Source of the DNA: Komagataeibacter intermedius TF2
GTDB lineage: Bacteria > Pseudomonadota > Alphaproteobacteria > Acetobacterales > Acetobacteraceae
Length of the DNA: 64,000 nt
Direction: 5' to 3'
Assembly: GCF_000964425.1 (NCBI RefSeq)
Contig: NZ_BANF01000061.1
Coordinates: 1-64,000, forward strand
This document shows positions 26,541-49,490 of this stretch, piece after piece. The stretch's first letter is position 1. Each line of letters starts with the position of its first letter. The notes beneath the pieces are model-generated. The model was given only the letters and a program-made list of their open reading frames with translations. It was not told where the DNA came from and made no database searches. The position numbers were made by a program, and so were the translations under genes.

Positions 26541-26619
26541 AAGTTTCCGGGTGCCGCTTTTTTTAAAAAGGCAGCGTTTTTCGAAGCTTTTTGAAAAACG
26601 CTTCACCAAAGGCTTCTTA
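26541..26619. repeat. Dispersed two-hairpin intergenic repeat, copy B
   Basis: Same orientation as copy A. The first, imperfect hairpin (about 26550-26575) keeps the GGGTGCCGCTTTTT...AAAAAGGCAGC core. The second has exact 9-bp arms GCGTTTTTC (26574-26582) and GAAAAACGC (26593-26601) around GAAGCTTTTT, followed by CTTCACCAAAG as in copy A. It fills the gap between sdhAF4 and the convergent membrane-protein gene. Confidence 0.72.
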
Positions 26620-28482: not shown

Positions 28483-31179
28483 ATGATAGCACGCCTGTTT
28501 TCCAAAACATTATGCCTCTCCCTCCTGTTATGTGGCAGTTGCCTGGTACCGCCCATGGCCCGCGCGGCATCGTCCGCTTCCGCCCCTGCCCAGCCTGAAA
28601 CGCCGTTGCAGGCCACCCTGCCCAACGGGCTGCGCGTGGTGATCGTGCCGGACCGGCTGGCCCCGGTTGTCAGCACCGAAATCAACTATCTGGTGGGGTC
28701 CGCCGCCGCGCCTGCGGGCTTTCCCGGCACGGCGCATGCATTGGAACACATGATGTTCCGTGGCAGCAAGGGGCTGGACCGGGACCAGATGGCGGCCATC
28801 GGCGCGCGACTGGGGGGCGATTATAATGCGGACACCACGGAAAACGTAACGCAGTTCTTTTATACCGCACCTGCAGACAACCTTGATGTCCTGCTGCGTA
28901 TCGAAGCCCTGCGCATGAATGGCCTGACCCTTGCGGCCGAGGACTGGGCACACGAACGCGGCGCGATCGAGCAGGAAGTCTCGCGCGATCTGTCCAGCCC
29001 CGGCTATGTCTATCTGGCGCGGTTGCAGTCCATCCTGTTCGCCGGCACGCCCTATGCACATGACGCGCTGGGCAGCCGTCCGTCCTTTGACCGGACAGAT
29101 ACGGCCCTGCTGCGCCGTTTCTACCGGCAGTGGTACGCGCCCAACAACGCCATCCTTGTCATTGCGGGTGACGTGGATGCCGCGCGCACGCTGGCGATGG
29201 TGCGCGAAACCTTTGGCGCGATCCCCGCACGCAGGCTGCCGGCCCGCCCGGAAATCCACCCCGGTCCCGTTCATGCGCAGACCCTGCAGTTCCCGACCGA
29301 TTACCCGGTGGGCCTTGTCGCCATCGCCAGTCGCATGCCGGGCCAGAACAGCCATGATTATGCCACCGCACGCATCCTGTCCGACGTACTGTGCAGCCAG
29401 CGTGGCGCATTATACGATCTGGTGCCGCAGGGACGCGCGCTACTGTCGAGCTTCGATTTCGTGACCAAGGCGGATGCCGGCATCGGCATTGCAATCGCGG
29501 CCTTCCCCAAGGGGACCAGCCCCGCCCCGCTGGAGGCCCGCATGCGCGACATCCTGCGTAGCTTGCGTGAAAACGGCGTGCCGTCAGACCTGGTCGATGC
29601 AGCCCGGCGCAAGGAACTGGCGCAGCTGGGCTTTGCCGCAAACAGCATTTCCGGCCTTGCGGAAAGCTGGTCGGAAGCACAGGCGATAATGGGCCTGCAA
29701 TCGCCCGATGACGAAGCTGCCGCCTTTGCCGCCGTCACACCCGAAGATGTCAACCGCCTGGCGCGTGAGGTGCTGGACCCGCAACAGGCCATTACCGCCA
29801 TCCTGACCCCGCGCGATGGCGGCCACCCGGTTGCGGACAAGGGATTTGGCGGCGCGGAATCCTTTGCCAGCACACCAGATCACCCTGTTACCCTGCCCCG
29901 CTGGGCCAATGACAGCCTGCTGGCCCTGCGTCCGCCCGAGGCATCGGTCCAGCCAGCGCAGTACACCCTGCCCAATGGTCTGCACCTGATCGTGCGCCCG
30001 GCATCCGTCAGCCATACCATCAACGTGTACGGCACCATCCGCCAGAATGAGGACATGCAGGAACCATCAGACAAGGAAGGCATTGCCGATATTACGGATG
30101 AACTGTTCCGCTATGGCAGCACGACGCACGACCGCGTCGGACTGCAGAAGGCGCTGGACGACATTGCCGCAACCGAAAGCGCCGGGGCCGATTTCAGCCT
30201 GAACGTACTGACGCCCGATTTTGACCGCGGCCTGGACCTGCTGGCGGAAAACGAACTGCATCCCGCCCTGCCCGAACAGGGGTTCAAGGTGGTGCGGGGC
30301 AATACGGCGGCATCCCTGTCCGGCCTGCTGCATTCACCCGAATACCTGTTCCAGCGCGCCATGCAGGGCGCAGTATCCCCTGCGGGCGACCCGTCATTAC
30401 GGCAGGCACGACCGGAAGGGGTGATGAAACTGACGCTGGCGGACTGCCGTGCCTTCTGGAAAGCGGCCTACAGGCCGGACCTGGCCACCATCGTCATTAC
30501 CGGCGATATTACGCCCGCTGCCGCCTACCGCGCGGTCTTGCGCACATTCGGCGCATGGCGGGCCAGTGGCCCCACGCCCGTGGTTGACCTGCCCCCGCGG
30601 CCCGACAGCCATACCAGTGTGATGAAGGTGCCCGACCCGTCCAGCACGCAGGCCACTGTCTCGCTGCCTGAAAGCCTGTCGCTGAACGTGGCCGATCCCG
30701 ACCATTTCGCGCTCAACCTTGGCAATGAAATCCTTGGGTCCGGTTTTTCATCGCGCCTGTATCGCGACCTGCGGGTACGCAGCGGCTATGTCTATACCGT
30801 GCGCAGCCACCTGACATGGAAACGCCACCGCAGCGCCTACAGCATTTCCTTTGGCGCGGACCCTGACAAGGTCGCGGCGGCGCGCAATGCCGCCATTCAT
30901 GACATAACGGCCATGCAGGAACAGCCCGTCAGCGAAGACGAACTGGCCATGGCGCGCGCGGGCATGCTGCGCGGACTGGCCCTGCAATCCGCCAGCCTGG
31001 ACACCATTGCGGCGGCTTACCTGCATTTCAGTGATCTTGGCCTGCCACTGGACCAGAACGACATCGCGGCCCGGGCCTATTACACGCTGGACGCCATCGC
31101 GATACGCGACGCCTTTCGCAAATGGATACGTCCCGCCGACCTGGCTGAAATCATCAAGGGGCCGCCTGACGCGCCTTAA
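28483..31179 (+). CDS. Exported M16 family zinc metallopeptidase (two-repeat, PqqL/PMPB-like)
   Basis: An 898-residue periplasmic or surface peptidase. A signal peptide ends near PMARA (residue 28). The first half-domain has the inverted zinc motif HALEH (His85, Glu88, His89) with the distal ligand Glu165 in HERGAIEQEVSRD. The second M16 half (from about residue 480, LPNGLHLIVRP) lacks the motif and forms the other side of the clamshell, with FSSRLYRDLRVRSGYVYTV as the usual substrate-binding R/Y stretch. Single-chain relatives include pitrilysin-like and PqqL peptidases, which degrade peptides inside a closed chamber. No PQQ genes are nearby, so a PqqL name is not justified. A hairpin follows the stop codon. 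Confidence 0.93.
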   Translation: MIARLFSKTLCLSLLLCGSCLVPPMARAASSASAPAQPETPLQATLPNGLRVVIVPDRLAPVVSTEINYLVGSAAAPAGFPGTAHALEHMMFRGSKGLDRDQMAAIGARLGGDYNADTTENVTQFFYTAPADNLDVLLRIEALRMNGLTLAAEDWAHERGAIEQEVSRDLSSPGYVYLARLQSILFAGTPYAHDALGSRPSFDRTDTALLRRFYRQWYAPNNAILVIAGDVDAARTLAMVRETFGAIPARRLPARPEIHPGPVHAQTLQFPTDYPVGLVAIASRMPGQNSHDYATARILSDVLCSQRGALYDLVPQGRALLSSFDFVTKADAGIGIAIAAFPKGTSPAPLEARMRDILRSLRENGVPSDLVDAARRKELAQLGFAANSISGLAESWSEAQAIMGLQSPDDEAAAFAAVTPEDVNRLAREVLDPQQAITAILTPRDGGHPVADKGFGGAESFASTPDHPVTLPRWANDSLLALRPPEASVQPAQYTLPNGLHLIVRPASVSHTINVYGTIRQNEDMQEPSDKEGIADITDELFRYGSTTHDRVGLQKALDDIAATESAGADFSLNVLTPDFDRGLDLLAENELHPALPEQGFKVVRGNTAASLSGLLHSPEYLFQRAMQGAVSPAGDPSLRQARPEGVMKLTLADCRAFWKAAYRPDLATIVITGDITPAAAYRAVLRTFGAWRASGPTPVVDLPPRPDSHTSVMKVPDPSSTQATVSLPESLSLNVADPDHFALNLGNEILGSGFSSRLYRDLRVRSGYVYTVRSHLTWKRHRSAYSISFGADPDKVAAARNAAIHDITAMQEQPVSEDELAMARAGMLRGLALQSASLDTIAAAYLHFSDLGLPLDQNDIAARAYYTLDAIAIRDAFRKWIRPADLAEIIKGPPDAP

Positions 31180-31204
31180 TGCCACGAACCGGCCAAAAAA
31201 ACAT

Positions 31205-31232
31205 GAACGGGGCGGGTTGGCCTGCCCCGTTC
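31205..31232 (+). terminator. Hairpin after the M16 peptidase gene
   Basis: Arms GAACGGGGC and GCCCCGTTC enclose a GGGTTGGCCT loop, starting 26 bases after the stop codon. The T tract behind it is weak (TTC AGG TT), but a run of seven A precedes it, so termination of opposing transcription is also possible. Confidence 0.55.
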
Positions 31233-31291
31233 TTCAGGTTATGAACCAGACAGGACAAATTCGACGTAGATGGTTTCTTGTTACAGTTTAC

Positions 31292-31306
31292 TGAAATTTT
31301 ATTTCA
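31292..31306. promoter_or_regulatory. 15-bp palindrome upstream of the AT-rich small gene
   Basis: TGAAAT-TTT-ATTTCA is a perfect inverted repeat 39 bases before the 31345 start codon. A TTGTTA hexamer (31278-31283) lies just upstream, but no good -10 box is evident. A repressor site is possible; chance in AT-rich sequence cannot be excluded. Confidence 0.35.
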
Positions 31307-31344
31307 AGACAGAATAAAACCGATTTCAGAAGGACTTTTCAGTT

Positions 31345-31632
31345 ATGGATATCCCCGCTACGCAAGATGAAGTCGTTGGCTCGTGGTTATCCAGTTCGCA
31401 CCGGTTCTATATTTCCTATGTTTCGCAAAAAAACGAATGGCATATCTTTCGTGTGACCGTAAAACACATCCTGACCATGTTCGGTATCAGACCATCACGG
31501 CAGGCACGGACATCGTGTGGCGATTTTTATGTAAAGGACGATGAACTGAAAGACATGACGGACAAACACTTTGTCCGTCACATCATGCACCTGTCCGACA
31601 AGGCTTCCTATCAGGAATACGGCCTTCGCTGA
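31345..31632 (+). CDS. AT-rich orphan small protein (95 residues)
   Basis: I do not recognise this protein. It is basic in its middle and acidic/amide-rich elsewhere, has no signal peptide and no membrane helix, and one cysteine. AAGGA lies 10 bases upstream of the ATG. Its base composition is far lower in G+C than the adjacent peptidase and bcsC genes, and the 165 bp before it are AT-rich too. It sits convergently at the 3' end of the cellulose synthase operon. It may be a recently acquired gene or a remnant; the clean start, ribosome binding site and stop favour a real gene. Confidence 0.55.
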   Translation: MDIPATQDEVVGSWLSSSHRFYISYVSQKNEWHIFRVTVKHILTMFGIRPSRQARTSCGDFYVKDDELKDMTDKHFVRHIMHLSDKASYQEYGLR

Positions 31633-31752
31633 CCTGCCTGGCAGGCGGGTATGCCACCCGTCCCGGCGGTGACGGAAAACAGTAATAAGGTTTCACCAGA
31701 AACGTCCGGAAGACCTGCAGGACGTGTTGCAGGCAGACCGTTCAGACACGCC

Positions 31753-34700
31753 TTAATGGGACGGGGCATAATGGATCATGAAGATCCCGTGCACTTCATC
31801 CCAGCTTCCGGAACGGGAATATCCCCCCTCCAGCCCCATGCGCCATCCGGGTGTCAGCTGGTAGATCATGCGTGCCTGTACATTTCCCGCCAGACCGCCG
31901 GTCGACAGCCCGGCATAGGTCTGGTGCCCCTGAACGCCACGCCCCCCCAACGGGAAGACCGCAGTCGGGTCCTGCGTATAATGCTGGTAGCCCGCTTCCC
32001 CCTTAAACATCCATGACCACCGGCCGGAATGTCCGTCATAGGTCACCGGCACCAGCGCCGCCATGAAGGCGCGGGGGGAGAAGTATCCCCCCTGTCCCCA
32101 CGTGAAATAATACGTGTTCCGCTTGTAGCCGAAATAGACCAGGTCAAGCCCGAGCCGCAGGTGCTGGGTGTCGCGCCCCTTCCATATCTGCGCCGATCCG
32201 CCCGCGCCGGCTTCCGCTTCATGGTTGGCGACCGTATTGGTTCCCTTCATGACGGCATAGCCGCCGCCAGCATAGACATTATAGGCCTGCGTGCCCCATT
32301 CCAGCTGGCCATGCCCCCGGTTGCGGGTCACGCCGCCCCAGACCTGTCCCGTGCCCGGATCACGCGCCCCGGCATAGGACAGCAGGCTGTCGATTACGGC
32401 GCGCCGCTCCCCCGTCACGCGCAGGGTCAGGTTGCGCGTCAGTTGCGGGGCCAGTTCGATCCCGCCCACGACGTTTGACGTGGTAAAGCCCAGCGGGGTC
32501 GAGCCGACATCCGCCGTTATCCAGTCATATTTGTAGCGCACCCCCACTGCGACACCCCCAACGGCGCCGGGCATATGGAAACCGGGCCGCACGCCATTTG
32601 CCGCCACCGTTCCATATTGCTGCGCATTGGCTGGCTGCGCCAGCGCGTTACCCGACAGCAGCACGCTGGGCATGATGGAAAAGGACACCGTCTGCCGGGT
32701 GGATGATAACGGGATGGTCGCCGTCATCGGAATATTGATCGATGTCAGGTGGCCCAGCCCGCTCTGCCCGGAACGGTCGCGGATCTCGACATTGCCATCC
32801 GCCTGTGGCGCAAGGGCGCGGGACAGGTAGCCCGCCTGCCGGTCCAGTGTCTGCACCGGTGTCAGTCGTGGATCATAGGTATAGGTTTCGGGCATGGCCA
32901 CGCCGGACCCGACGATAAAGGGAAGGCTGGCATCGGGCCGTTCGTCACGTGCGCGCGTGCGTCCTTCTGCACAGCCGGGGTCAAGGCGCATGGCGGAATT
33001 CATCTGTTCCTCCAGCGAGCCGGATGTCGCGCAGTCCAGCATGCGGGCATGGCGCAGGTCACCCAGCTGCCGCCGTTCCCGCCCGGCATGGCCGTCCAGT
33101 TCCGCCTGGATTTCCCATGTATCACCCCATTTCGGGTGATGATCCATAAGGGATGCGGCCATGTCACGCGCGACATGATCCTGTCCCACGGCCAGTGCGT
33201 CGCGGGCGACGGTGGCCTGCACCACCCTGTCATCCGGCTTCAGGTGCAGGGCCCGCATGTCGAAATCCAGCGCCTGCCGCGAATGGTGACGGACATTTTC
33301 CACCCGTCCCCGCGCCAGCAGAAGCGCCACGGAATCCGGGTTCTGCGCCAGTAGCGGATCAATGACCTTTTCAGCCAGGTCGGGTCGGCCCGCCACGTCG
33401 TACTGGTCCGCACGGGTAACGACAATGCTTTCGCGTATCTGCTGGCGGGCGTCACGCTGCTGCGGTGTCAGGTCCAGCCCTTCCGCATCCAGCCGGTCCA
33501 TGACACGCTGCGCGGCAGAGGGATCACCCAGTTGCACGAACGTGCCGCCATAAGCCAGCGCCTGATCCACCCCCAGCGTACCGCCCGCCTGCGCCATGGC
33601 CCGGTCCAGCACCGCAATGGCCTGCGCATTCGACGCATGGCGACGCAACATGGCGTCCACCACCATCTGTCCGCGCATGCCGTCGGGATCGGGGGCGACC
33701 GGCATGTCCTGCAGCATGGCCACGGCCTGCGCATCACTGGCGGGCAGCGCCTGAAGCCGTTTCCACAATGTCACCAGCGCCACGCCACGCGCCATGTCGG
33801 GCGTTATGGCGGCAGGCGGCATATGCGCCAGCAGCGCCGCGGCCCCGGACATGTCATGTGTCTGCATGGCAAACGCGAAACAGGCCTGAAGCGCATCCGT
33901 GCGCCGGGGCGCGGTGTCACAGAAATGCTGCATCAGCGTCTGGGCGCGATCCGTCTGGCCCAGCGCCACCAGCGCCTGGGCCAGATGCAGGTGGTCCCAC
34001 CCGTTATCCGGCAGCTGCCGCAATGCCTGTTCCAGCAGGGTCGCGCGCAGGCGTGGGTCGGTTGTCGCCTGTGCGCGGGCCTGCAGCAGCAGGCCCTCCA
34101 GCACGGGCAGGCGCGCGAAATGCACGGCGCGCAGCCTGTCGATCTGCCGGGCGGCTTCATCCAGCCTGCCTTCACGGATCAGGATGCCAGCAAGCCCGGC
34201 TTCCGCCGAAGGGTTGCCCGGCGAGAGGCGCAGCAGGTCCGTCCAGGCCACTTTCGCGGCCGACCAGTCATGCCGCGCCTCCAGTATGATGGCGCGGACC
34301 TGAACGGTATCGGCGATCTGGCCGTGCCTTTTTTCAATTTCTGACAACAGGGCCCATGCACGGTCATATTCGTGATGCGACACCAGTTGCCACATCTGCG
34401 GCAGCGCGGGGTCATTTTCCGGGGCGTCAAGGGCCGCAAGCGCCCTGTGGATTTCGACATTGGCCGGATCCAGCGCCACGGCCTGCGTCAGCAGCGCCCG
34501 GGCCTTTGTCATGTCGCCGCGCCGTTGCGCGACAAGGCCCAGCCCCTCGGTCGCGGCGGCACGGACGGATGGCTCCGCCACACAATCCTGGAACGCAGCG
34601 TCCGCCTGATCCAGATTGTCATGCGCCAGCGCCGTAAACCCCGCATTGACCCGCTGCATGCGCTCGATCTGCTGCATGCGCTGGCTGATCACCGTGTCAT

Positions 34701-35535
34701 CGGGGTGAATATCCAGCCATGCCCGGTAATAGGGCGCGGCCTGCGGGTCTACCCCCATCCAGTCCAGCGTCCGGCGCCAGACCTGAACCGCTTCATCACG
34801 GATCATGGACGACGTATCGGGCGATGTCGCAAGCGCGCGCATGTCGGCCAGTGCTTCGGGCCGGGAAACGGGCCGGTATCCCAGCGACTGATCCAGGGCG
34901 ATGCGGGCTTCCATGTCGTGCGGCCCGATGGACAGCAGGGTTCTCAGCCGCCGCACGGCGTCGGCATACCCCAATGGGGCCCCCGACAGGACGCGGTCAT
35001 ATTCCACCTCCAGCATGGGGGATAGCAGGGGCTGGGGAAACAGGGCGCGATACTGGAACATCGCCTGCGTGGCATGCCCGGCATCCGCCGTGGCGCGGGC
35101 ATGCGAAAGGGCCACCCTGTCAACCGGCGGCTGCGCGATCCATTGCTGCAGGGCCGCAATCTGTTCGGGGGACCCATGCGCGTTTTCAAGCCTGAGCAAG
35201 GTCTGGCGCGCGGCGGCGGGATCGCCCTGATGCACCTGTACCGCGCCCAGCATCAGCAGGGCCTCGATATTGTCCGACTGGATCTGCAGCGCACGCTGCA
35301 GGGCATGCAGGGCGTGCGTGTCCTCGTTATGATTGATCCAGAAATACCCTTCCTCGATCTGCTGGTTGACGATCCCCTCGGCATAGCTGACCGATGGGGG
35401 CACAGCGGCCCGTGCCGCGCCCATCGTCCCCAGCATGCCAAGCGCGCCCGCCAGCATGACGCGCCTGCACGCCGCTGCAAGGCTGGTGCCAGAAGAAAGA
35501 AACTGCCGGTACGGCACGGAAGGGTCAGGGTGCAT
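31753..35535 (-). CDS. bcsC: Cellulose synthase outer-membrane export subunit BcsC
   Basis: A 1,260-residue BcsC. A signal peptide (to about AARA, residue 44) is followed by a long array of TPR helices (about residues 50-920; for example ALLMLGAVQVHQGDPAAARQ and AGFTALAHDNLDQADAAF) and a C-terminal outer-membrane beta-barrel (about 930-1260), which ends in an aromatic-rich strand typical of porins. It forms the periplasmic scaffold and outer-membrane pore for the glucan chain. The start lies 15 bp after the bcsAB stop, so the genes form one operon. No bcsD, bcsX, bcsY, bcsZ or ccpA-like gene is associated; in Komagataeibacter this two-gene layout is that of the third (bcs3-type) operon. Confidence 0.95.
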   Translation of the reverse strand: MHPDPSVPYRQFLSSGTSLAAACRRVMLAGALGMLGTMGAARAAVPPSVSYAEGIVNQQIEEGYFWINHNEDTHALHALQRALQIQSDNIEALLMLGAVQVHQGDPAAARQTLLRLENAHGSPEQIAALQQWIAQPPVDRVALSHARATADAGHATQAMFQYRALFPQPLLSPMLEVEYDRVLSGAPLGYADAVRRLRTLLSIGPHDMEARIALDQSLGYRPVSRPEALADMRALATSPDTSSMIRDEAVQVWRRTLDWMGVDPQAAPYYRAWLDIHPDDTVISQRMQQIERMQRVNAGFTALAHDNLDQADAAFQDCVAEPSVRAAATEGLGLVAQRRGDMTKARALLTQAVALDPANVEIHRALAALDAPENDPALPQMWQLVSHHEYDRAWALLSEIEKRHGQIADTVQVRAIILEARHDWSAAKVAWTDLLRLSPGNPSAEAGLAGILIREGRLDEAARQIDRLRAVHFARLPVLEGLLLQARAQATTDPRLRATLLEQALRQLPDNGWDHLHLAQALVALGQTDRAQTLMQHFCDTAPRRTDALQACFAFAMQTHDMSGAAALLAHMPPAAITPDMARGVALVTLWKRLQALPASDAQAVAMLQDMPVAPDPDGMRGQMVVDAMLRRHASNAQAIAVLDRAMAQAGGTLGVDQALAYGGTFVQLGDPSAAQRVMDRLDAEGLDLTPQQRDARQQIRESIVVTRADQYDVAGRPDLAEKVIDPLLAQNPDSVALLLARGRVENVRHHSRQALDFDMRALHLKPDDRVVQATVARDALAVGQDHVARDMAASLMDHHPKWGDTWEIQAELDGHAGRERRQLGDLRHARMLDCATSGSLEEQMNSAMRLDPGCAEGRTRARDERPDASLPFIVGSGVAMPETYTYDPRLTPVQTLDRQAGYLSRALAPQADGNVEIRDRSGQSGLGHLTSINIPMTATIPLSSTRQTVSFSIMPSVLLSGNALAQPANAQQYGTVAANGVRPGFHMPGAVGGVAVGVRYKYDWITADVGSTPLGFTTSNVVGGIELAPQLTRNLTLRVTGERRAVIDSLLSYAGARDPGTGQVWGGVTRNRGHGQLEWGTQAYNVYAGGGYAVMKGTNTVANHEAEAGAGGSAQIWKGRDTQHLRLGLDLVYFGYKRNTYYFTWGQGGYFSPRAFMAALVPVTYDGHSGRWSWMFKGEAGYQHYTQDPTAVFPLGGRGVQGHQTYAGLSTGGLAGNVQARMIYQLTPGWRMGLEGGYSRSGSWDEVHGIFMIHYAPSH

Positions 35536-35550
35536 TGATCGATTTTTCTG

Positions 35551-38500
35551 TTACAGATTGCCGGTCAGGTCATCATTGAGAACCCGCTTACGGCTGCGCG
35601 CGCGCAGCACGGACATGGCGCAGGACGTACCGGCGACACTGCCGATGACACCCAGCAGGTACAGCAGGAACGGATGTCCCCCCAGATACCAGTCGGGCCA
35701 CATCCATGCCGGCATGTACCCCTCCGTATAGGCGCTGGCGGTGCGGTAATTATCCAGCCGCGCCCCGTGCCGCACCACCATGTCCCCCTGGAAGCGTTCG
35801 CCCCGGGCCGGGTCGCGCAGGTCCCCCGCCATGGCCGACAGCGCATCGGGCGTCGCCCCCAGCAGCGCCACGACCGAGTGATGCGGCGCGAATGGCGACT
35901 GCGCGGCAATCAGCGCCCCCTCATCCAGGCTGCCCGGCGGGTTGCCCGCCTCCATCCCGACCAGATGGCGCATCCATTGCCCTGCCTTCACGCTCCATGT
36001 CCCGCCAGTGCGGTAACCCGCCCGCGCCAGCGCCTGCGACGCCGCGCCAAGCCGGTCGAAGGGCGAGATGACCAGCATGTCCCCGGCCTGTTCGCCCCCT
36101 GCGTGCATGTCCGTCGTATCGACATGCAGGCCGGTGACCGGATACTGGTCCACCGCGCCAAGGAAACCCATAAGGTCCAGAAAGGCGCCCTGCGTTGCGG
36201 GTGCCGGGTCTGGCGGCAGCAGGACGGTCGTCTGCGACATATCCGCCATGCGCGAAAACGGAAAGCCCGACATGGCGAACAGCTTCACACTGGGCAGGAC
36301 TGCCAGATGCCGCGACGCCGACAGGTCGATTGTCGAGGACGGATCAAGCCCGACCTCACTGACGGCAGGCCCCTGCCCCCCGCTGGTCCGGGCGCGGACA
36401 TCAAAATAGACCGACAGGACATTCTGTTCCTTCAGCACCCATGACGGCAGTTCCACATCATGTTCAACCAGCCCGTCATGCCTGCCGAACGGATTGAACG
36501 ACCACGAAACCAGCGGATAGGAATGGAGGAACATGCCATTGAGCATGACGTCCACCTCGGAATGTTGGCGATCCACCAGCGCGCCGGGGGGCGCCATGAC
36601 CCGCAGGCGCGCGATAAAGGGCTTCGAACGCCATGTATGCAGGTCGGGCGGCACGGCGAACGGAATATCGACCACCATGGGGTCAAGCCCTGCCCGATGC
36701 AGCTGCGTATCGGGCAGCAGGTCGCCAAGGCGCACCGGATGATCCGTCGGCAGAAGGCCCGGGGCGTCATATGGCCTGCGCGCAGGGGGCGTCACGTCGG
36801 GCGCTGCGGCGTGCGTACCATCAATCTGGAGCTGTGGCGCGCCCAGAACCAGCGCGCGCGCCGCCGTGGCCACATCCGTATCCGTGCGTCCACTGACCAC
36901 AAGCACGGTGCCGAACACGTCATGCGGATTGGGGATTTCAGCCACGACCGGTCCCGCGGGCGCGTTTCCCCACGGCCCCGGCAGCCCGACCCCGACCACG
37001 ATGGCATTGCCCGGCCCGGACAGTGCGGGCGCAACCGCGAAGTGAATACGCCGGTCATGCAGTTTCATGCCCAGCCATGAGGCCACCATGCCGCCCGCCG
37101 CCTGCACCCGCGTGCTGGCGGCAGGCGCCAGCACGAATGTCACGGGGGCGGTTCCCGCCATGCCACGATCCACCAACGGGTATGGCAGGGCAGACAGCAG
37201 CCGGTGCGGCACGAGCTGGACCGTTGTAAACGACAGCGTGGAGTCCGGATCAATGGCCACCTGCAGCCCTGTCGCCTTCATGGGCATGCCCCCATCCGCA
37301 GGCGGCTGCGCATCAGGACCACATGCACCGGACGGGAAGGTGGCGCCCGCCCCCTGTCGCGCGATCAGGCGGAAATTGAAGCGGTTGCGCGTATCGAACA
37401 GCAGCGCGCTGACCGGCAGGTCCACAGGCCCGAACCGGCCATTGCCCTGCGTGCAGACGACGCCCACGGGCTGGTCATTCAGCATGACGGCAATCGCCGC
37501 CTGCCCTGTCGTCGGGGACAGGCTGACGCTGCCGGACAGGCTGAGCCGCGCACTGCGGATGATCTTGTCCCGGCCTACATCCGCGTCCATCCCGTATATC
37601 GGGGCCATGGCGCGCAGCAGCATCGGCTGGAACTGGCCCAGCTGGGTAAAGGTCCGGCTGACCGTCACCGGTGTCCGGGACACATGCGCTGCATCGGCCT
37701 GCGTCATATGTTCATCATCAAACACCGCAACGGCATTATCCCCATCCCTGTCCGCGACAGGGGTGCCCGCGCCCGTTGGCACGGCGGCGGGGGCTGCCGG
37801 AACCTGCGCCCATGCCGTCATGCCTGTCGCCAGCATCAGGCACAGCGCCATGATCCCGGCTGCCGCCCCGCGCGGGCGGCGGGTCGGCTGTATGACCAGG
37901 CGTTCCTTGGGCAGGACGGCTTCCTTTTCCATATCCGTAACGACCGGGCCGGTTTCCGGGGCCTGTTTCGTTTCCCCATCCCGGGGGGATGGCCGGAACA
38001 GCGCAAGGATGCTGAGCAGGACGGTATAAAAACTGCGTACCGGGTTGTCGGGCGGGAAATCGGACCATTGCGCCCAGGCGTCGTCCCGGCCGAAGACCAG
38101 TTCCACCACCTGTTCTTCCTGCGCCAGCCCGTCTATCGCCCATTTCAGGCGCACGGTGCTGTCCGTCCGCGCAATGACAACCGCGCGCACGGCCGCGGGG
38201 CCACCGGCCAGCGTCCAGCTGACGGTCACGCCATGCCCGACCGGGAACCGGTCCGCTGCATGCAGGCTGACACAGCACCCCCCCATGGAGACGTCACGGG
38301 TATGACAGGCGAACTGCTGGTGGTCATCGGTAGCCAGATGCACGGGCAGCTTCGCCTGCACGCGGTGACAGGTGCGCCGCTGCCGGGTTTCCCGCGCCAC
38401 CGCGATCGAACCCATGACAATGGTCAGGCTGAACAGGATCCACAGGCTGTTCATGGCCATGGCGCGGAACACCAGCGTTTCGTGATAATGCACGCACGCC

Positions 38501-40038
38501 GACCACACCCCCATGCCCAGCCCCGTCACAAGCGCCATGGCGATGATGATGTTGGGATAGACCGCACGCCAGTCGAAATACCCGTGTTCCAGCAGGCCGC
38601 CCTTGTCAGTGACGTTGAACTTGCCCTTGTGCGGCGCGATCAGGGTAATGAAGGTCATGCGCACCAGAAAAGGCGCCAGCACGGTTTCGTACAGCTCGCT
38701 CCAGAATGAATAACGCCACCGTCCCTGCAGGCGCGACATGGTCATGGTCGTATGAAACAGATGCGGCAGGGCATAGACCGCCAGTTCATACGGTGACGCC
38801 GCGATCATGGTCACGCCCAGAAACAGGTACCCCAGCGGCGCCAGCAGGAACAGCAGGCGCGATACCGAAAACAGGTAATGCGTGGCGGCCGCGAAATAGC
38901 ATATCCGCTGTGTCAGCTTCAGCCCCGGCCCGGTCAGCGGATTGTCGATACGCAGCATCTGGAACATGCCACGCGCCCAGCGCATGCGCTGGCCGATCTG
39001 CATGCCCAGGGTTTCCGTCTCCAGCCCCGCCGCCATTGGTTCACGCAGATAGGCCGAGCCCCACCCCTGACGCTGCATGCGCAGGGCGGTGTGGGCGTCC
39101 TCGGTCACCGTTTCGGTGGCGAACCCGTTGATCGACATGATGGCCTTGCGCCGCAGCACCGCGCACGACCCGCAGAAGAATGTCGCGTTCCAGTAATCGT
39201 TCCCGTCCTGCAGCAGTCCGTAGAACAGGTTCGTCTCGGGCGGGATTCCGCGCCCGCGGCTCATGTTGCGCTGGAACGGGTCGGGCGAATAGAAATGATG
39301 GGGCGTCTGCAGCAGCGCAAGGTTCGGGTCCGCCACCATCCACCCGATCGTCTTTTTCAGGAAGCTGCGGACCGGGACGTGATCACAGTCGAAAATGGCA
39401 ATCAGGTCACCCGTCGTGATCTCCAGCGCATGGTTCAGGTTGCCGGCCTTCGCATGGTTGTTGTGCATGCGGGTGATGTAGCCGGCACCGGACTGGTGCG
39501 CGAAATCCCGGAACGCGGCGCGCCTGCCGTCATCAAGGATATAGACATTCAGCCTGTCTGCAGGCCAGTCCAGCGCAAGGCAGCCCAGCACCGTAGTGCG
39601 GACAATGGACAGGTCCTCGTTATAGGTCGGGACATAGACATCGATCACCGGCCAGCGCGACGTGTCATCCGGCAGGGGATGGACCGTCCGCCGCAGCGGC
39701 CACGCAAGCTGGAAATAGGTCAGGCCGACGCGGATGGTCGTATAGATTTCCCCCAGCGCCAGCACCAGTACCATGATGGTCTGCAACACACCGGAAAAAT
39801 CGAGCGTCGAGGTAAAACGCCACACCAGATACCGGGTGGAGACAAAAATGGACAGGAACATAAGGAAACAGCGCGACCAGCGTTCATGATGCCGCCGCAC
39901 GATAAAAAACAGTACGACACCCCCAATCGCGACGAATAGCTGCCGGTCGGTTGGCAGATACGTCAGACTGGAGACAAGCAGGAAAACGACAAACACAAGC
40001 GCCAGAAGACCTGTGTATACTGATTTTTTATTTACCAT
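35551..40038 (-). CDS. bcsAB: Fused cellulose synthase catalytic and periplasmic subunit BcsAB
   Basis: A 1,495-residue fusion. Residues 1-720 are BcsA: membrane helices at both ends of a GT2 domain with DDG (169-171), DCD (217-219), TED (312-314) and QRMRW (350-354), all catalytic or acceptor-binding motifs intact. The PilZ domain follows, with RxxxR (Arg555, Arg559) and DVSMGG (582-587), so c-di-GMP activation is expected. Around residue 721-745 a signal-like helix (GIMALCLMLATGMTAWA) leads into the periplasmic BcsB part, which ends in a membrane anchor (about 1465-1485). It polymerises UDP-glucose into beta-1,4-glucan and threads it outward. The start codon lacks a clear ribosome binding site, and the upstream region is AT-rich. 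Confidence 0.96.
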   Translation of the reverse strand: MVNKKSVYTGLLALVFVVFLLVSSLTYLPTDRQLFVAIGGVVLFFIVRRHHERWSRCFLMFLSIFVSTRYLVWRFTSTLDFSGVLQTIMVLVLALGEIYTTIRVGLTYFQLAWPLRRTVHPLPDDTSRWPVIDVYVPTYNEDLSIVRTTVLGCLALDWPADRLNVYILDDGRRAAFRDFAHQSGAGYITRMHNNHAKAGNLNHALEITTGDLIAIFDCDHVPVRSFLKKTIGWMVADPNLALLQTPHHFYSPDPFQRNMSRGRGIPPETNLFYGLLQDGNDYWNATFFCGSCAVLRRKAIMSINGFATETVTEDAHTALRMQRQGWGSAYLREPMAAGLETETLGMQIGQRMRWARGMFQMLRIDNPLTGPGLKLTQRICYFAAATHYLFSVSRLLFLLAPLGYLFLGVTMIAASPYELAVYALPHLFHTTMTMSRLQGRWRYSFWSELYETVLAPFLVRMTFITLIAPHKGKFNVTDKGGLLEHGYFDWRAVYPNIIIAMALVTGLGMGVWSACVHYHETLVFRAMAMNSLWILFSLTIVMGSIAVARETRQRRTCHRVQAKLPVHLATDDHQQFACHTRDVSMGGCCVSLHAADRFPVGHGVTVSWTLAGGPAAVRAVVIARTDSTVRLKWAIDGLAQEEQVVELVFGRDDAWAQWSDFPPDNPVRSFYTVLLSILALFRPSPRDGETKQAPETGPVVTDMEKEAVLPKERLVIQPTRRPRGAAAGIMALCLMLATGMTAWAQVPAAPAAVPTGAGTPVADRDGDNAVAVFDDEHMTQADAAHVSRTPVTVSRTFTQLGQFQPMLLRAMAPIYGMDADVGRDKIIRSARLSLSGSVSLSPTTGQAAIAVMLNDQPVGVVCTQGNGRFGPVDLPVSALLFDTRNRFNFRLIARQGAGATFPSGACGPDAQPPADGGMPMKATGLQVAIDPDSTLSFTTVQLVPHRLLSALPYPLVDRGMAGTAPVTFVLAPAASTRVQAAGGMVASWLGMKLHDRRIHFAVAPALSGPGNAIVVGVGLPGPWGNAPAGPVVAEIPNPHDVFGTVLVVSGRTDTDVATAARALVLGAPQLQIDGTHAAAPDVTPPARRPYDAPGLLPTDHPVRLGDLLPDTQLHRAGLDPMVVDIPFAVPPDLHTWRSKPFIARLRVMAPPGALVDRQHSEVDVMLNGMFLHSYPLVSWSFNPFGRHDGLVEHDVELPSWVLKEQNVLSVYFDVRARTSGGQGPAVSEVGLDPSSTIDLSASRHLAVLPSVKLFAMSGFPFSRMADMSQTTVLLPPDPAPATQGAFLDLMGFLGAVDQYPVTGLHVDTTDMHAGGEQAGDMLVISPFDRLGAASQALARAGYRTGGTWSVKAGQWMRHLVGMEAGNPPGSLDEGALIAAQSPFAPHHSVVALLGATPDALSAMAGDLRDPARGERFQGDMVVRHGARLDNYRTASAYTEGYMPAWMWPDWYLGGHPFLLYLLGVIGSVAGTSCAMSVLRARSRKRVLNDDLTGNL

Positions 40039-40138
40039 TATCGATCATTCACTAATAAAATCAGATTTGTTGGTTTTATTATTGATTTTTATTTTTTCTC
40101 ATTTCAGCGGGGCGTCTGAAATATGTCCTGTCCGTTTA

Positions 40139-40161
40139 ATTGACCTCTCTGTTTTGTCAAT
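40139..40161. promoter_or_regulatory. Inverted repeat ATTGAC-N11-GTCAAT upstream of bcsAB
   Basis: The 6-bp arms (40139-40144 and 40156-40161) are exact complements, spaced by one and a half helical turns. The minus-strand reading of the right arm is TTGACA, so it may also be a -35 box, though no good -10 follows. Center lies about 110 bp before the bcsAB start. Confidence 0.3.
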
Positions 40162-40402
40162 ATCTTTAAAAAAAACAGACAATATTGATGCCACAATTAT
40201 GGAAATCGCTCATCATAAAGGATAATATTCCTAATATATTCCGTTCTGTTCCATTTCTATAGCCTCAGCTATGCTACTCATTCTTATTCTGGATGCACGC
40301 GTTTGCTTCAACACTACCGGGGAACCACCTGGTATCCATAACCTGCCTGAATATGTTCAGATACAATCAGAGGTAGAAAAGTATTTTCTGGATTACAACC
40401 GC

Positions 40403-40417
40403 TTGCCATAATGGCAA
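40403..40417. promoter_or_regulatory. Operator-like palindrome upstream of bcsAB
   Basis: TTGCCAT and ATGGCAA flank a single central base. The site begins about 22 bases past the TATAAT box in the minus-strand direction, a typical repressor position. The binding protein is unknown. Confidence 0.35.
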
Positions 40418-40510
40418 ATGAAATAAATATAAAACTATATTATACCCGTATGGGCGCGCTGGCAGGACGCTGCTGACGACCGATCCCCGACGGTTCATGA
40501 ACGACATAAA

Positions 40511-40544
40511 AAAGGGGGAGGTGCATTGCTGCACCTCCCCCTTT
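40511..40544 (-). terminator. Rho-independent terminator of rpsA
   Basis: A perfect 14-bp stem (AAAGGGGGAGGTGC and GCACCTCCCCCTTT) with a small loop is followed on the minus strand by six T residues (40508-40513). It lies 52 bp after the rpsA stop codon and separates rpsA from the bcs region. Confidence 0.9.
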
Positions 40545-40595
40545 CCGGCACGGCGTCCGGCCTGCGTCAAACAGGCCAGACAGTTCCGTCTGGTA

Positions 40596-42311
40596 TCAGT
40601 TCTCGGCGTTACGACGACGGATCGCGGCACCCAGAATGTCACCCAGCGAAGCCCCGCTATCGGACGAACCGTAGTCGGAGATGGCCTGCTTGTCTTCCTC
40701 GACCTCACGGCCGCGGATGGTCAGGGCCAGCTTGCGGGCTGCGCGGTCAACCGACACGACCTTCGCATCGACGCGTTCACCAACGGCGAAACGCTCCGGA
40801 CGCTGGTCAGCCTTGTCACGGGCCAGTTCCGCACGGCGGATGAAGCCGGTCAGGACATCGTCAACCTTCACCTCGATGCCGTTCGACTGAACAGCGGTGA
40901 CGATGCAGGTCACGATCGCGCCCTTCTGCACCTTGCTCAGCGTGTCAGCAGCGGGGTCTTCCTGCAGCTGCTTGATGCCCAGCGAGATACGTTCCTTCTC
41001 CACGTCCACATCCAGCACCTTGGCCTTCACGACCTGGCCCTTTTCGTAGTGGCTCATGGCGACTTCGCCCGGCTCGTCCCAGGACAGGTCGGACATGTGA
41101 ACCATGCCGTCGATATCTGCGGACAGGCCGATGAACAGGCCGAATTCGGTGATGTTGCGGATCTCGCCTTCCACCACGGAACCAACCTTGTGTTCCTCGG
41201 CGAACTGCTCCCACGGGTTGCGCTGCACCTGCTTCAGGCCCAGCGAGATGCGACGCTTCGCGCTGTCCACATCCAGAACCATCACGTCGACTTCCTGCGA
41301 AGTGGCGACGATCTTGCCCGGATGGACGTTCTTCTTCGTCCAGGACATTTCGGACACGTGCACCAGACCCTCGACGCCCGGCTCCAGCTCCACGAATGCA
41401 CCGTAGTCGGTGATGTTCGTGACGCGACCGGTGTAGCGGGCACCCGGCGGGTACTTGATCGCCACGTTTTCCCACGGGTCAGCCTCAAGCTGCTTCATGC
41501 CCAGCGAGATACGCTGCGTGTCGGGGTTGAAGCGGATGACCTGCACGCGGACCGGCTGGCCGATCTGCAGGGCTTCGGACGGGTGGTTGATGCGCTTCCA
41601 TGCGATATCGGTCACATGCAGCAGGCCATCGACGCCGCCGAGGTCCACGAACGCACCGTAATCGGTGATGTTCTTGACCACGCCATCAAGGATCATGCCT
41701 TCCTTCAGGCCCTGGATCAGCTCGCTGCGCTGTTCCGCACGGGTCTCTTCCAGAACCGCACGACGCGACACGACGATGTTGCCACGCGCACGATCCATCT
41801 TCAGGATCTGGAACGGCTGGGGCACACCCATCAGCGGGGTCACGTCGCGCACGGGGCGGATGTCCACCTGGCTGCCGGGCAGGAACGCCATCGCGCCGCC
41901 CAGGTCAACGGTGAAGCCACCCTTGACGCGGCCATAGATGGTGCCGTTGACGCGCTGGTTGTTCTCGAACGCCTTTTCAAGGTTCGACCAGGCTTCCTCG
42001 CGGCGGGCCTTTTCACGCGACAGGACGATGGACCCGTCACGGTCTTCGTACCGCTCGACAAACAGTTCGATAACGTCACCCGGCTTGACATCGGGGGTCA
42101 CACCCGGCGGGCCGAATTCCTTCAGGGCGACGCGCCCTTCGCTTTTCAGGCCGACATCGACGATCGCGTATTCATCCGTCAGGCGGACGACGCGACCGGT
42201 GACAACGGAACCGTCAAACGCGGAGTCGCGACCAAGGGTTTCCTCAAGAAGGGCGGCAAAGTCCTCGCCACCCTTATGGTCGGCGACGGGCTGTGTTGTG
42301 GCTGAAGCCAT
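40596..42311 (-). CDS. rpsA: 30S ribosomal protein S1
   Basis: S1 of 571 residues with six S1 RNA-binding repeats, the usual count. Repeats are recognisable by KGG/DYGAFVDLGGVDGLLHVTDI, DYGAFVELEPGVEGLVHVSE and EFGLFIGLSADIDGMVHMSD in series. The first two repeats bind the ribosome, the others mRNA. It is the third gene of aroA-cmk-rpsA, an order conserved widely in proteobacteria; ihfB, which often follows rpsA, is not present here. A strong terminator follows. Start at 42311 matches the family N-terminus. Confidence 0.98.
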   Translation of the reverse strand: MASATTQPVADHKGGEDFAALLEETLGRDSAFDGSVVTGRVVRLTDEYAIVDVGLKSEGRVALKEFGPPGVTPDVKPGDVIELFVERYEDRDGSIVLSREKARREEAWSNLEKAFENNQRVNGTIYGRVKGGFTVDLGGAMAFLPGSQVDIRPVRDVTPLMGVPQPFQILKMDRARGNIVVSRRAVLEETRAEQRSELIQGLKEGMILDGVVKNITDYGAFVDLGGVDGLLHVTDIAWKRINHPSEALQIGQPVRVQVIRFNPDTQRISLGMKQLEADPWENVAIKYPPGARYTGRVTNITDYGAFVELEPGVEGLVHVSEMSWTKKNVHPGKIVATSQEVDVMVLDVDSAKRRISLGLKQVQRNPWEQFAEEHKVGSVVEGEIRNITEFGLFIGLSADIDGMVHMSDLSWDEPGEVAMSHYEKGQVVKAKVLDVDVEKERISLGIKQLQEDPAADTLSKVQKGAIVTCIVTAVQSNGIEVKVDDVLTGFIRRAELARDKADQRPERFAVGERVDAKVVSVDRAARKLALTIRGREVEEDKQAISDYGSSDSGASLGDILGAAIRRRNAEN

Positions 42312-42373
42312 GAGCTACTCGTAAATCCTGTACCCCTGTGCCACGCATGGGTGGACAGGGACAATCCTGCGCC

Positions 42374-42395
42374 CCCGCATGCCCGCGCATGCGGG
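42374..42395 (-). promoter_or_regulatory. Leader hairpin upstream of rpsA
   Basis: CCCGCATG and CATGCGGG form an exact 8-bp stem with a 6-base loop, 63-84 bases before the rpsA start. S1 genes are autoregulated through leader structure in other bacteria, so this may be a binding site for the protein; that is inference. Confidence 0.4.
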
Positions 42396-42475
42396 ACATA
42401 TTGGGAACGGCTTGCCCGGCGGATATGCCACGACACGGTCGCGGCGCGCCTGACGGCCAATATTGAAACGCCATA

Positions 42476-42587: not shown

Positions 42588-43229
42588 CTAGCGCGTCATG
42601 CGCGCCACGATCCGCAGTGCTTCGGCCAGCACGTCATCCGCGCTCAGGCCGTCGGTCTCGATGCGCACGGCGTCCCCGGCCGCGCGCAGGGGGGCGACGG
42701 CGCGTTCTGAATCGGCCCGGTCCCGCGCCGCGATTTCGCGCTCGACGCGGGTGATCTGCTCTTCGCGGTCGGGTGCGGCGGGATCGGTCGCAAGCTGCTC
42801 CCACCGCCGCGTGGCCCGCGTGCGCGGGGAAGCCGTGATGAACAGCTTGACCGAAGCATCGGGGAAAATGACGGTCCCGATATCGCGGCCATCCAGCACC
42901 GCACCATGCTCGCCTGCAAAACGGCGCTGCACGTCAACCAGCACGCGGCGCACGGCGGGCTGTGCCGCGACAAGGCTGGCCGCGCGATCGACCTCGGGCA
43001 CGCGCAGGTCGGTCCGGCTGAGGTCCTCCAGCCCGACACTGGCGGCAAATTCCTCTGCCGCACCCTGTGCGGGGTCACGGCCCGCATCGATCATCCGCCG
43101 TCCCGTCGCGCGGTACAGCAGGCCCGTATCGAGATATGGCAGGTCCAGCGCCTGCGCCAGCCGCTTCGCAAGGGTGCCCTTACCCGCAGCCGCAGGGCCA
43201 TCGACCGCTATGACCAGCCGCCGGGTCAT
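42588..43229 (-). CDS. cmk: Cytidylate kinase
   Basis: A 213-residue (d)CMP kinase. The P-loop is DGPAAAGKGTLAKRLA at the N-terminus, followed by PYLDTGLLYRATGRRMI. The LDGRDIGTVIFPDASVKLFI stretch and the arginine-rich lid (RTRATRRWEQL) are family features. It overlaps aroA by four bases and is followed after 276 bp by rpsA; the order aroA-cmk-rpsA is common. Confidence 0.97.
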   Translation of the reverse strand: MTRRLVIAVDGPAAAGKGTLAKRLAQALDLPYLDTGLLYRATGRRMIDAGRDPAQGAAEEFAASVGLEDLSRTDLRVPEVDRAASLVAAQPAVRRVLVDVQRRFAGEHGAVLDGRDIGTVIFPDASVKLFITASPRTRATRRWEQLATDPAAPDREEQITRVEREIAARDRADSERAVAPLRAAGDAVRIETDGLSADDVLAEALRIVARMTR

Positions 43230-44578
43230 GCCGCAAGCCCGGCGCCGATGCTGTTCATGAGCGTGATGAAACCGGGGAAACTGGTATCGATGAACGCGGT
43301 ATCATCAACGGAAACCGGCTTTTGCGCCGCAAGGCCCATGACGATCGCGCTCATGGCCAGGCGATGGTCCATGCGCGTCTGGACCAGTCCGCCACCGGGG
43401 ATCGCGCCCCCCGTGCCATGCACGATCATGTCATCACCCACGACCTCGACCCTCACGCCATTGGCTTCCAGCAGGGCGACAGTGGCGGCAAGGCGGTCGC
43501 TTTCCTTCACGCGCAGTTCCTCCAGCCCGCGAAAGCGCGACTGCCCCGTGGCGTGGGCCGCGACCACCGCAAGGATGGGGTATTCGTCAATCATGGACGG
43601 TGCGCGGGTGGCGGGTACGTCCACGCCATGCAGGGCGCCTGCGGTGGCGGTGATGTCGCCCACGGGTTCGCCCCCTTCCACGCGTTCGTTGCTGATGACC
43701 AGATCGGCGCCCATTTCCTTCAGCGAGGTGAACAGCCCGGTCCGTAGCGGGTTCAGTCCCACGCCGCGCACGCTGACCGCCGAGCCCGGCACCAGCAGGG
43801 CCGCCGCCAGCACGAAGGCCGCCGATGACGGATCGCCCGGCACCACGATATCACGCGCGACCAGTTCGGGCCTGCCCTGCACGGTAATGACCCGGCCACC
43901 CGCCCCCATGGGTTCGACATGCACGGTCGCACCGAAATGGCGCAGCATGTTTTCGGTATGGTCACGGGTTGCCACGGGTTCTTCCACCCGGGTCTCGCCC
44001 TGTGCATTCAGCCCCGCCAGCAGCACGGCCGACTTCACCTGCGCTGACGCAACCGGCAGGCGGTAGGACAGCGGCGGCGGATTGGCATTTCCCTGTATGG
44101 CCAGCGGCAGGCGCCCGCCCTGACGCGACAGGAACACGGCGCCCGTCGCCGCCAGCGGGTCCATCACCCGCTTCATCGGGCGGCCACGCAGGCTGGCATC
44201 GCCCGTCATGACGGAGGTGAAGCCGTGGCTGGCCAGAATGCCCGACAGCAGCCGCGCCGCCGTGCCCGAATTGCCCATGTCCAGCACGTCCGCCGGTTCG
44301 TGCAGCCCGTCCAGACCGCACCCCCGCACCGTCCAGTTCCCCGCGCCCGTGCGGGTGATGTCCGCCCCCAGCGCGCGCATGGCGTCGGCGGTGCGCAGCA
44401 CGTCCTCGCCTTCCAGCAGGCCGGTGATGTGGGTCGTGCCACGTGCAAGGGCCGCGAACATCAGCGAACGGTGGCTGATTGATTTGTCACCCGGAACCTG
44501 GACCGAACCGGAAAGGGGCGCGCGCGGGGCATGGACCGTCAGCGCACGGACGGAAGATTGGACATGATCGGTTTTCAT
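43226..44578 (-). CDS. aroA: 3-phosphoshikimate 1-carboxyvinyltransferase (EPSP synthase), class II-like
   Basis: EPSP synthase of 450 residues, sixth step of the shikimate pathway. PGDKSISHRS binds shikimate-3-phosphate; SAQVKSAVLLAGLNAQGE, RDHTENML, SMIDEYPILAV and RVKESDRLAA are as in the class II enzymes typified by Agrobacterium CP4. In the PEP-site loop (LDMGNSGTAARL) residue 105 is glycine, while the CP4 enzyme has alanine at the equivalent position. Overlaps cmk by four bases. Divergent from the TIGR02300 gene. Confidence 0.97.
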   Translation of the reverse strand: MKTDHVQSSVRALTVHAPRAPLSGSVQVPGDKSISHRSLMFAALARGTTHITGLLEGEDVLRTADAMRALGADITRTGAGNWTVRGCGLDGLHEPADVLDMGNSGTAARLLSGILASHGFTSVMTGDASLRGRPMKRVMDPLAATGAVFLSRQGGRLPLAIQGNANPPPLSYRLPVASAQVKSAVLLAGLNAQGETRVEEPVATRDHTENMLRHFGATVHVEPMGAGGRVITVQGRPELVARDIVVPGDPSSAAFVLAAALLVPGSAVSVRGVGLNPLRTGLFTSLKEMGADLVISNERVEGGEPVGDITATAGALHGVDVPATRAPSMIDEYPILAVVAAHATGQSRFRGLEELRVKESDRLAATVALLEANGVRVEVVGDDMIVHGTGGAIPGGGLVQTRMDHRLAMSAIVMGLAAQKPVSVDDTAFIDTSFPGFITLMNSIGAGLAA

Positions 44579-49318: not shown

Positions 49319-49397
49319 TGATGCATCCGGGCTGGAGAAGTGGCGATCGCGCGTAAAGCGCCATGGCGACACGGAAACTTTCGGGTGGAAGACCGGC

Positions 49398-49490
49398 CAT
49401 AACCCGGACGAAACTCACTATGGCTGCTTCCTTCCGGACCTGACCAGGTTAGCAAGGTATCCGTCTACAACCGATCTCCCGAGCGGGTTC
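49398..49490 (-). ncRNA. ffs: Signal recognition particle RNA (small bacterial 4.5S type)
   Basis: The minus strand reads the diagnostic apical loop GGTCAGGTCCGGAAGGAAGC around 49422-49443, flanked by long complementary arms. The ends GAACCCG (near 49490) and CGGGTT (near 49401) pair, giving a hairpin of about 93 nt, the usual small SRP RNA size. It binds Ffh to target membrane proteins. Exact ends are uncertain by several bases. Position just before dnaX is common. Confidence 0.93.

Follow-up and report, generated by a model that had tools for sequence, protein, structure and literature searches.

We analysed a stretch of 64,000 nucleotides from Komagataeibacter intermedius TF2 (the window), which carries a two-gene cellulose operon of bcs3 type at 31753-40038 on the minus strand, behind rpsA. 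Read along that strand, the order is aroA-cmk-rpsA, a hairpin, an AT-rich leader, bcsAB3 and bcsC3; the gene for an M16 peptidase and a small gene, orf95, lie beyond on the plus strand. The features, in window coordinates, are:

28483-31179, plus strand: M16 peptidase gene, the conserved right flank, convergent with rpsA
31205-31232, no strand assigned: hairpin behind the M16 gene, the right edge, with a run of A on the low side
31345-31632, plus strand: orf95, a 95-aa gene at the far edge of the putative inserted block
31753-35535, minus strand: bcsC3, exporter with TPR and outer-membrane BCSC_C parts, 1260 aa if read from the first ATG
35551-40038, minus strand: bcsAB3, fused cellulose synthase catalytic subunit (GT2 plus PilZ) and BcsB, 1495 aa
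40039-40513, no strand assigned: AT-rich leader between the rpsA hairpin and bcsAB3
40514-40541, minus strand: terminator-like hairpin of rpsA, the left edge of the putatively exchanged block, in a sequence type common to the three carriers only
40596-42311, minus strand: rpsA, the conserved left flank
42588-43229, minus strand: cmk
43226-44578, minus strand: aroA

Gene calls and Pfam/NCBIfam searches bear out the first-pass annotation of this DNA in describing an operon of only fused bcsAB and bcsC, the gene content that defines the bcs3 type. BcsAB3 has Glycos_transf_2, PilZ and BcsB domains and scores 812 bits against the CelA model TIGR03030 (cut-off 699), the bcsC3 product has TPR and BCSC_C domains, and the rpsA product is an equivalog match at 1008 bits. 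The bcsD, bcsZ, bcsH, bcsX and bcsY families were not found among the ten window proteins scanned.

The operon had been placed directly behind the rpsA terminator, between AT-rich borders, and both descriptions hold. The stretch with the rpsA hairpin folds with a z of -5.0 relative to shuffles; the value is -4.9 for that with the hairpin at 31205-31232, a candidate that could act as a minus-strand terminator. A scan for consensus terminators listed neither hairpin. The GC content is 0.476 at 31250-31749 and 0.380 at 40000-40499 compared with about 0.62-0.70 in most genes. At third codon positions the two bcs3 genes (GC3 0.79 and 0.76) resemble the five flanking genes (0.74-0.80), with orf95 poorer at 0.56. 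Because the bcs3 values of 0.76-0.79 are core-like, they point to a putative donor of the same kind. A promoter scan of 31150-40700 gave 8 promoter-like sites against 3.2 expected, among them a candidate at 40107-40078 on the minus strand, upstream of bcsAB3, with 9 of 12 matches. The window also contains a small SRP RNA at 49385-49479 on the minus strand (RF00169, 58.7 bits).

The small gene at the far border had likewise been pointed out, and orf95 is, on comparative grounds, a real gene because its homologues in the two other carriers of the operon at this place are 94% and 57% identical to it, with changes concentrated at third codon positions; dN/dS is about 0.10-0.17. It is confined to genomes with bcs3 behind rpsA (3 of the 19 genus genomes and, in a family sample of 200, K. 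intermedius TF2 itself), and by this distribution it is part of the presumed inserted block. The protein matched no Pfam or NCBIfam family, no plasmid and no phage, reached only E 0.33 against PHROGs, and gave a weak AlphaFold model (pLDDT 61.6).

BcsAB3 has the motifs YILDDG (166), FDCDH (216), TEDA (312), QRMRWA (350), RTCHR (555) and DVSMGG (582). The set DDG, DxD, TED, QxxRW and PilZ RxxxR/DxSxxG, which we take to mark a UDP-forming cellulose synthase, is present in all three carriers (G000, this genome; G007, K. oboediens; G001, K. diospyri); in the seven bcs3 copies found elsewhere, the RxxxR pattern of this check caught another place. Between K. intermedius and K. oboediens, bcs3 has a dN/dS of about 0.07-0.2, which together with the intact motifs suggests that the synthase may have been kept in use. 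The operon would encode a c-di-GMP-dependent UDP-glucose cellulose synthase with BcsA and BcsB as one polypeptide and its own BcsC porin. Because it lacks a BcsD, BcsZ and BcsH of its own, its product would most likely be a beta-1,4-glucan of non-crystalline form, which would cover the main bcs1 fibres or attach to them. The K. hansenii authors propose a product that is non-fibrous and binds to the main fibres; their text reports thinner fibres with a slightly lower Young's modulus after bcsAB3 deletion, a bcsAB3 transcript at about 15% of bcsAB1 and a protein undetected by proteomics (PMC10106347); the text on K. medellinensis describes basal expression of bcs3 (PMC6559206).

To place the locus in its genus we compared 19 Komagataeibacter genomes, several of them drafts. 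All 19 have rpsA, and three have bcs3 beside it: K. intermedius TF2, K. oboediens and K. diospyri, the nearest carrier contigs being those of K. oboediens LMG 18849 and K. diospyri MSKU 9. In the 16 remaining genomes the M16 gene stands directly opposite rpsA, across a gap of 0.1-0.9 kb (15 genomes) or 2.9 kb (G014). The same junction without bcs is found in the outgroup genera G090 (0.2 kb gap) and G060 (1.8 kb); among the other ten outgroup stretches, the M16 gene is about 8 kb from rpsA in one and absent from the stretch in nine. Because the slot between rpsA and the M16 gene is without bcs in 16 of the 19 genus genomes and in G090 and G060, the position of bcs3 there is, judged by gene order, derived, which upholds the earlier view of the operon as an added module. 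That view named the same rpsA-bcsAB order in distant relatives as evidence against it. In a family sample of 120 genomes, many of them draft assemblies (115 with RpsA, 40 with a BcsAB match at 1e-200), no bcsAB other than that of K. intermedius TF2 lay within 50 kb of rpsA among the matches scored (at most the best four candidates per genome), the next being that of G054 at about 53 kb.

The slot has the same flanks with different contents, and these contents do not track the species tree. In G014 the gap (L027:5890-8773) is AT-rich (GC 0.41) and holds a GtrII-type glucosyltransferase gene and a GT2/GtrB-like gene, another polysaccharide module in the slot used by bcs3. A palindromic repeat resembling AAGCTTTTTTCAAAAAGCTTC (at most 4 mismatches) occurs in 11 of the 16 non-carrier slots and is absent from that of the window, these 17 having been scanned; it is possibly a REP-type element of the genus. 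Similar repeats lie at window positions 26584 and 57104. In K. oboediens one part of the block is at the end of contig L129 and the other on contig L020 (1-417), with 7 overlapping bases at window 33421-33427, since bcsC3 is interrupted by an insertion element that we take to be IS21-like (IstA/IstB-like by eye).

Seven more genomes of the genus have bcs3-like copies at other sites, with 61-67% identity. Their left-hand surroundings are mostly different, and to the right stands a 170-aa gene (four genomes), an aldehyde dehydrogenase gene (two) or the contig end (the seventh). For most pairs of these copies (one copy is truncated by a contig end), the similar stretch begins some 250-380 bases upstream. 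It stops close to the end of bcsC3, apart from G008 and G003, whose similarity runs on for about 2.4 kb. Beyond the operon, their leaders show no match of more than 30 bases to the leader in the rpsA slot. In K. intermedius TF2, where an empty counterpart of the other bcs3 site was sought, the sequences that flank this site elsewhere lie on separate contigs. The G003 copy lacks part of bcsAB3 and bcsC3, and such partial loss is described in the text on K. medellinensis bcs3 (PMC6559206). In both G008 and G003, bcs3 is closer than bcs1 to the five G017-type genomes (ratios 0.61-0.95), a second hint that bcs3 may travel.

The phylogeny that had been proposed as a check placed the BcsA of ten bcs3 copies in one clade (UFBoot 100), sister to bcs2/bcs4-like clades and apart from bcs1, in a tree of 55 sequences made from fetched copies, some hits of the genus scan being absent. 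We infer from gene content and the literature that the clade holding the window operon is that of the named bcs3 genes. K. intermedius TF2 has further bcsAB loci. One, on contig C918 (28107-32610, L042), is broken by an in-frame stop that leaves a small bcsB-like ORF, which probably explains the gene called 'bcsB_IIa' in the text on strain ENS15 (PMC9705422). Another, L041:14-4567 on contig C830, has a GC3 of 0.90 and a long branch relative to its relatives. A plasmid search with BcsAB3 matched 574 records, all below 60% identity, and gave no donor. A fused-type BcsAB relative with 41% identity lies on the Kozakia baliensis plasmid NZ_CP014677.1 (43272-47678).

The distribution of bcs3 in the slot is patchy and non-monophyletic. 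In a tree of the flank genes, three non-carriers split K. intermedius and K. oboediens from K. diospyri (UFBoot 100), and an independent tree of the bcs1 operon gives the same split (100). Both trees put K. diospyri with G014, G010 and G002, away from the other two carriers, and a single carrier clade is rejected (p-AU 0.0012).

Most of the block is also more divergent than its surroundings. Between K. intermedius and K. diospyri, dS is 0.66 for BcsA3, 0.91 for BcsB3, 0.96 for BcsC3 and 1.75 for orf95, values near saturation, compared with 0.26-0.53 for M16, aroA, cmk, bla and bcs1 and 0.14 for rpsA. At the two remaining bcsAB loci of this pair, 19 of 20 windows give a dS of 0.36-0.70 and one gives 0.17; the first three BcsA3 windows (0.41-0.67) overlap these control loci. 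The BcsA3/BcsA1 dS ratio of the pair is 1.58, and pairs at one other site reach 1.99 and 1.69. The BcsA excess is, by this comparison, within the range of vertical pairs, leaving bcsA3 less clear than bcsB3, bcsC3 and orf95. Among 45 pairs, none has a higher BcsC dS ratio than this one (1.82). To judge from these values, bcs3 is apparently older than the species split.

The phylogenetic signal differs between the two sides of the rpsA stop. Counting gap-free positions in six genomes, in an alignment partly gapped just behind rpsA, we found 13 sites behind the rpsA stop that group the carriers and 4 that follow the species tree, against 1 and 14 in the bins covering rpsA (40600-42399; Fisher 8e-5 for the contrast). 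At the M16 edge, where K. oboediens contributes only the 3' half of the gene, the counts are 6 against 1 beyond the stop and 9 against 11 in the bin with the last part of M16; by these counts, this edge is the less clean of the two. At the rpsA stop, all three carriers read TGATACC and all 16 non-carriers TGATCC. A blastn comparison of closed with occupied slots (E 0.5) returned mostly the rpsA 3' end and hairpin, together with scattered matches of 12-33 bases that we take for chance. No donor genome was found.

We consider it probable that bcs3 is a derived occupant of the slot between convergent rpsA and M16 genes, that the block has moved between Komagataeibacter species by recombination in its flanks and that it serves to make a likely non-crystalline glucan. 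The block (rpsA hairpin, leader, bcsAB3, bcsC3 and orf95) would most likely move through homologous recombination within its conserved flanks, with transposition of its own the less likely route, and divergent bcs3 versions would come to occupy one slot in different species. We favour this route because the block has no marks of a mobile element, the carriers are not a clade, the sequence type behind rpsA is common to them and bcs3 is apparently older than the species split. The exchange may have happened more than once. The first-pass annotation had left the mode of entry open; the absence of mobile-element marks that it noted stands, and the choice now narrows towards flank recombination.

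A single arrival is possible and clearly less likely. In this version the ancestor of the six-species group gained bcs3 in the slot one time, G010/G002 and G014 later lost it (in G014 gtr genes took its place), and the operon evolves fast. The slot, orientation, orf95 as partner and the sequence type behind rpsA are the same in all three carriers, as a single arrival would predict. Fast evolution fits the bcs3 proteins, which mostly change faster than those of bcs1 (BcsC dN ratios of 1.0-3.4 among the other-site copies and 3.6-5.7 between these and the slot copies); pairs at one of the other sites, with BcsA3 dS ratios of 1.69 and 1.99, fit it as well. However, it requires one gain and two scarless losses, with the non-carrier gaps yielding mostly the rpsA 3' end and hairpin in blastn, and the BcsC ratios between K. 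intermedius and K. diospyri (dN 5.7, dS 1.82) exceed those of the other-site pairs.

Arrival as a self-moving element (transposon, integrative element or prophage) is improbable. Insertion sequences are described as common in the genus and as often disrupting bcs genes in the texts of PMC13028821 and PMC8855687, but the block comprises bcsAB3, bcsC3 and orf95 only. The earlier observation that transposase and direct end repeats are lacking holds: we found no integrase or transposase in the block, no tRNA at the slot in the window scanned and no matching repeat pair at the two block ends, the only pairs being gene-internal and chance-like. The sequence type that the carriers share behind rpsA also argues against it.

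An old, stable position, with rpsA-bcs3 already in the ancestor of the genus and since lost from nearly all its descendants, is very improbable; its only support is bcs3 at other sites in 7 of the 19 genomes, and it is contradicted by the junctions without bcs in 16 genus genomes and two outgroup genera and by the presence of bcs3 at two or more other sites.

The first-pass annotation regarded this place as one 'where ihfB is usual', which is true of more distant family members and not of this genus. In 63 of the 115 family genomes with RpsA the best IHF-beta match is no more than 5 kb away from rpsA; this is so in none of the 26 nearest by RpsA score (Fisher 1e-11), with 'other contig' in a draft assembly scored as not near; seven of the 115 have no entry (five with only weak matches beyond those listed), and among the seven G083 and G087 have weak IHF-beta matches far from rpsA. 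The K. intermedius IHF-beta found no relative in the window or in stretches of 14-19.5 kb around rpsA from 18 congeners and 12 outgroup genera, in a search that recovered its control stretch. Because ihfB is near rpsA in none of the 26 nearest genomes and in none of these regions, its separation from rpsA is, on this evidence, older than the arrival of bcs3. That bcs3 displaced ihfB can be dismissed: the 63 genomes that would suggest it are distant, and K. intermedius TF2 has its own ihfB intact on contig C911, away from the window. The earlier observation is confirmed and its interpretation supported in part, for the added module and not for ihfB.

Returning to flank recombination, a broader form of this reading would make the rpsA-M16 interval a slot that trades surface-polysaccharide modules (bcs3 with orf95, and the O-antigen glucosylation-like gtr genes of G014), with at least two arrivals of long-diverged bcs3; we regard it as evenly balanced. 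For K. intermedius, this operon has already been published (PMC9705422). In the text, as distinct from the figures, of the Komagataeibacter cellulose papers PMC13028821, PMC8970348, PMC8855687, PMC6559206, PMC10106347, PMC6528568 and PMC9705422, we found no mention of rpsA next to bcs. The term rpsA has 0 occurrences in these texts, PMC8970348 not being included in that count; genes around the operon do appear in Fig. 2 of PMC9705422. A literature search for ribosomal protein S1 with cellulose synthase in Komagataeibacter found no paper. If correct, an accessory operon in an exchangeable slot would help to explain why closely related industrial producers do not all have the same cellulose synthases, and the empty rpsA-M16 junction would be a natural site at which to test insertion of such operons in harmless food bacteria.

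Residues 16-673 of BcsAB3 match BcsA chains and 735-1487 match BcsB chains (7LBY, 4HG6 and others, which we take to be BcsA and BcsB of E. coli and Rhodobacter); in structures of that type BcsA and BcsB are separate chains, whereas here they form one polypeptide. Among known operons, bcsIII of K. intermedius ENS15 has a fused bcsABIII, at 4488 bp exactly as long as the gene here, and a single adjoining bcsC. The latter, at 3705 bp, has the length that bcsC3 of the window would have if it began 26 codons later, at codon 27 (PMC9705422). ENS15 also has bcsAB2 and a small bcsB-like ORF, resembling the broken bcsAB on C918. The text of that paper names no neighbouring gene of bcsIII and compares no sites, and its authors propose bcs1 as the source of the extra operons, through duplication and deletion. 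The bcs3 operons of K. hansenii ATCC 53582 and K. medellinensis are likewise described as two-gene bcsAB3-bcsC3 units with low expression and a subtle fibre phenotype on deletion (PMC10106347, PMC6559206). We infer that the copies with 61-67% identity are these named K. hansenii and K. medellinensis bcs3 genes; they differ from the operon in the window in standing at other sites, without orf95 and behind leaders in which no similarity to the leader here was found.
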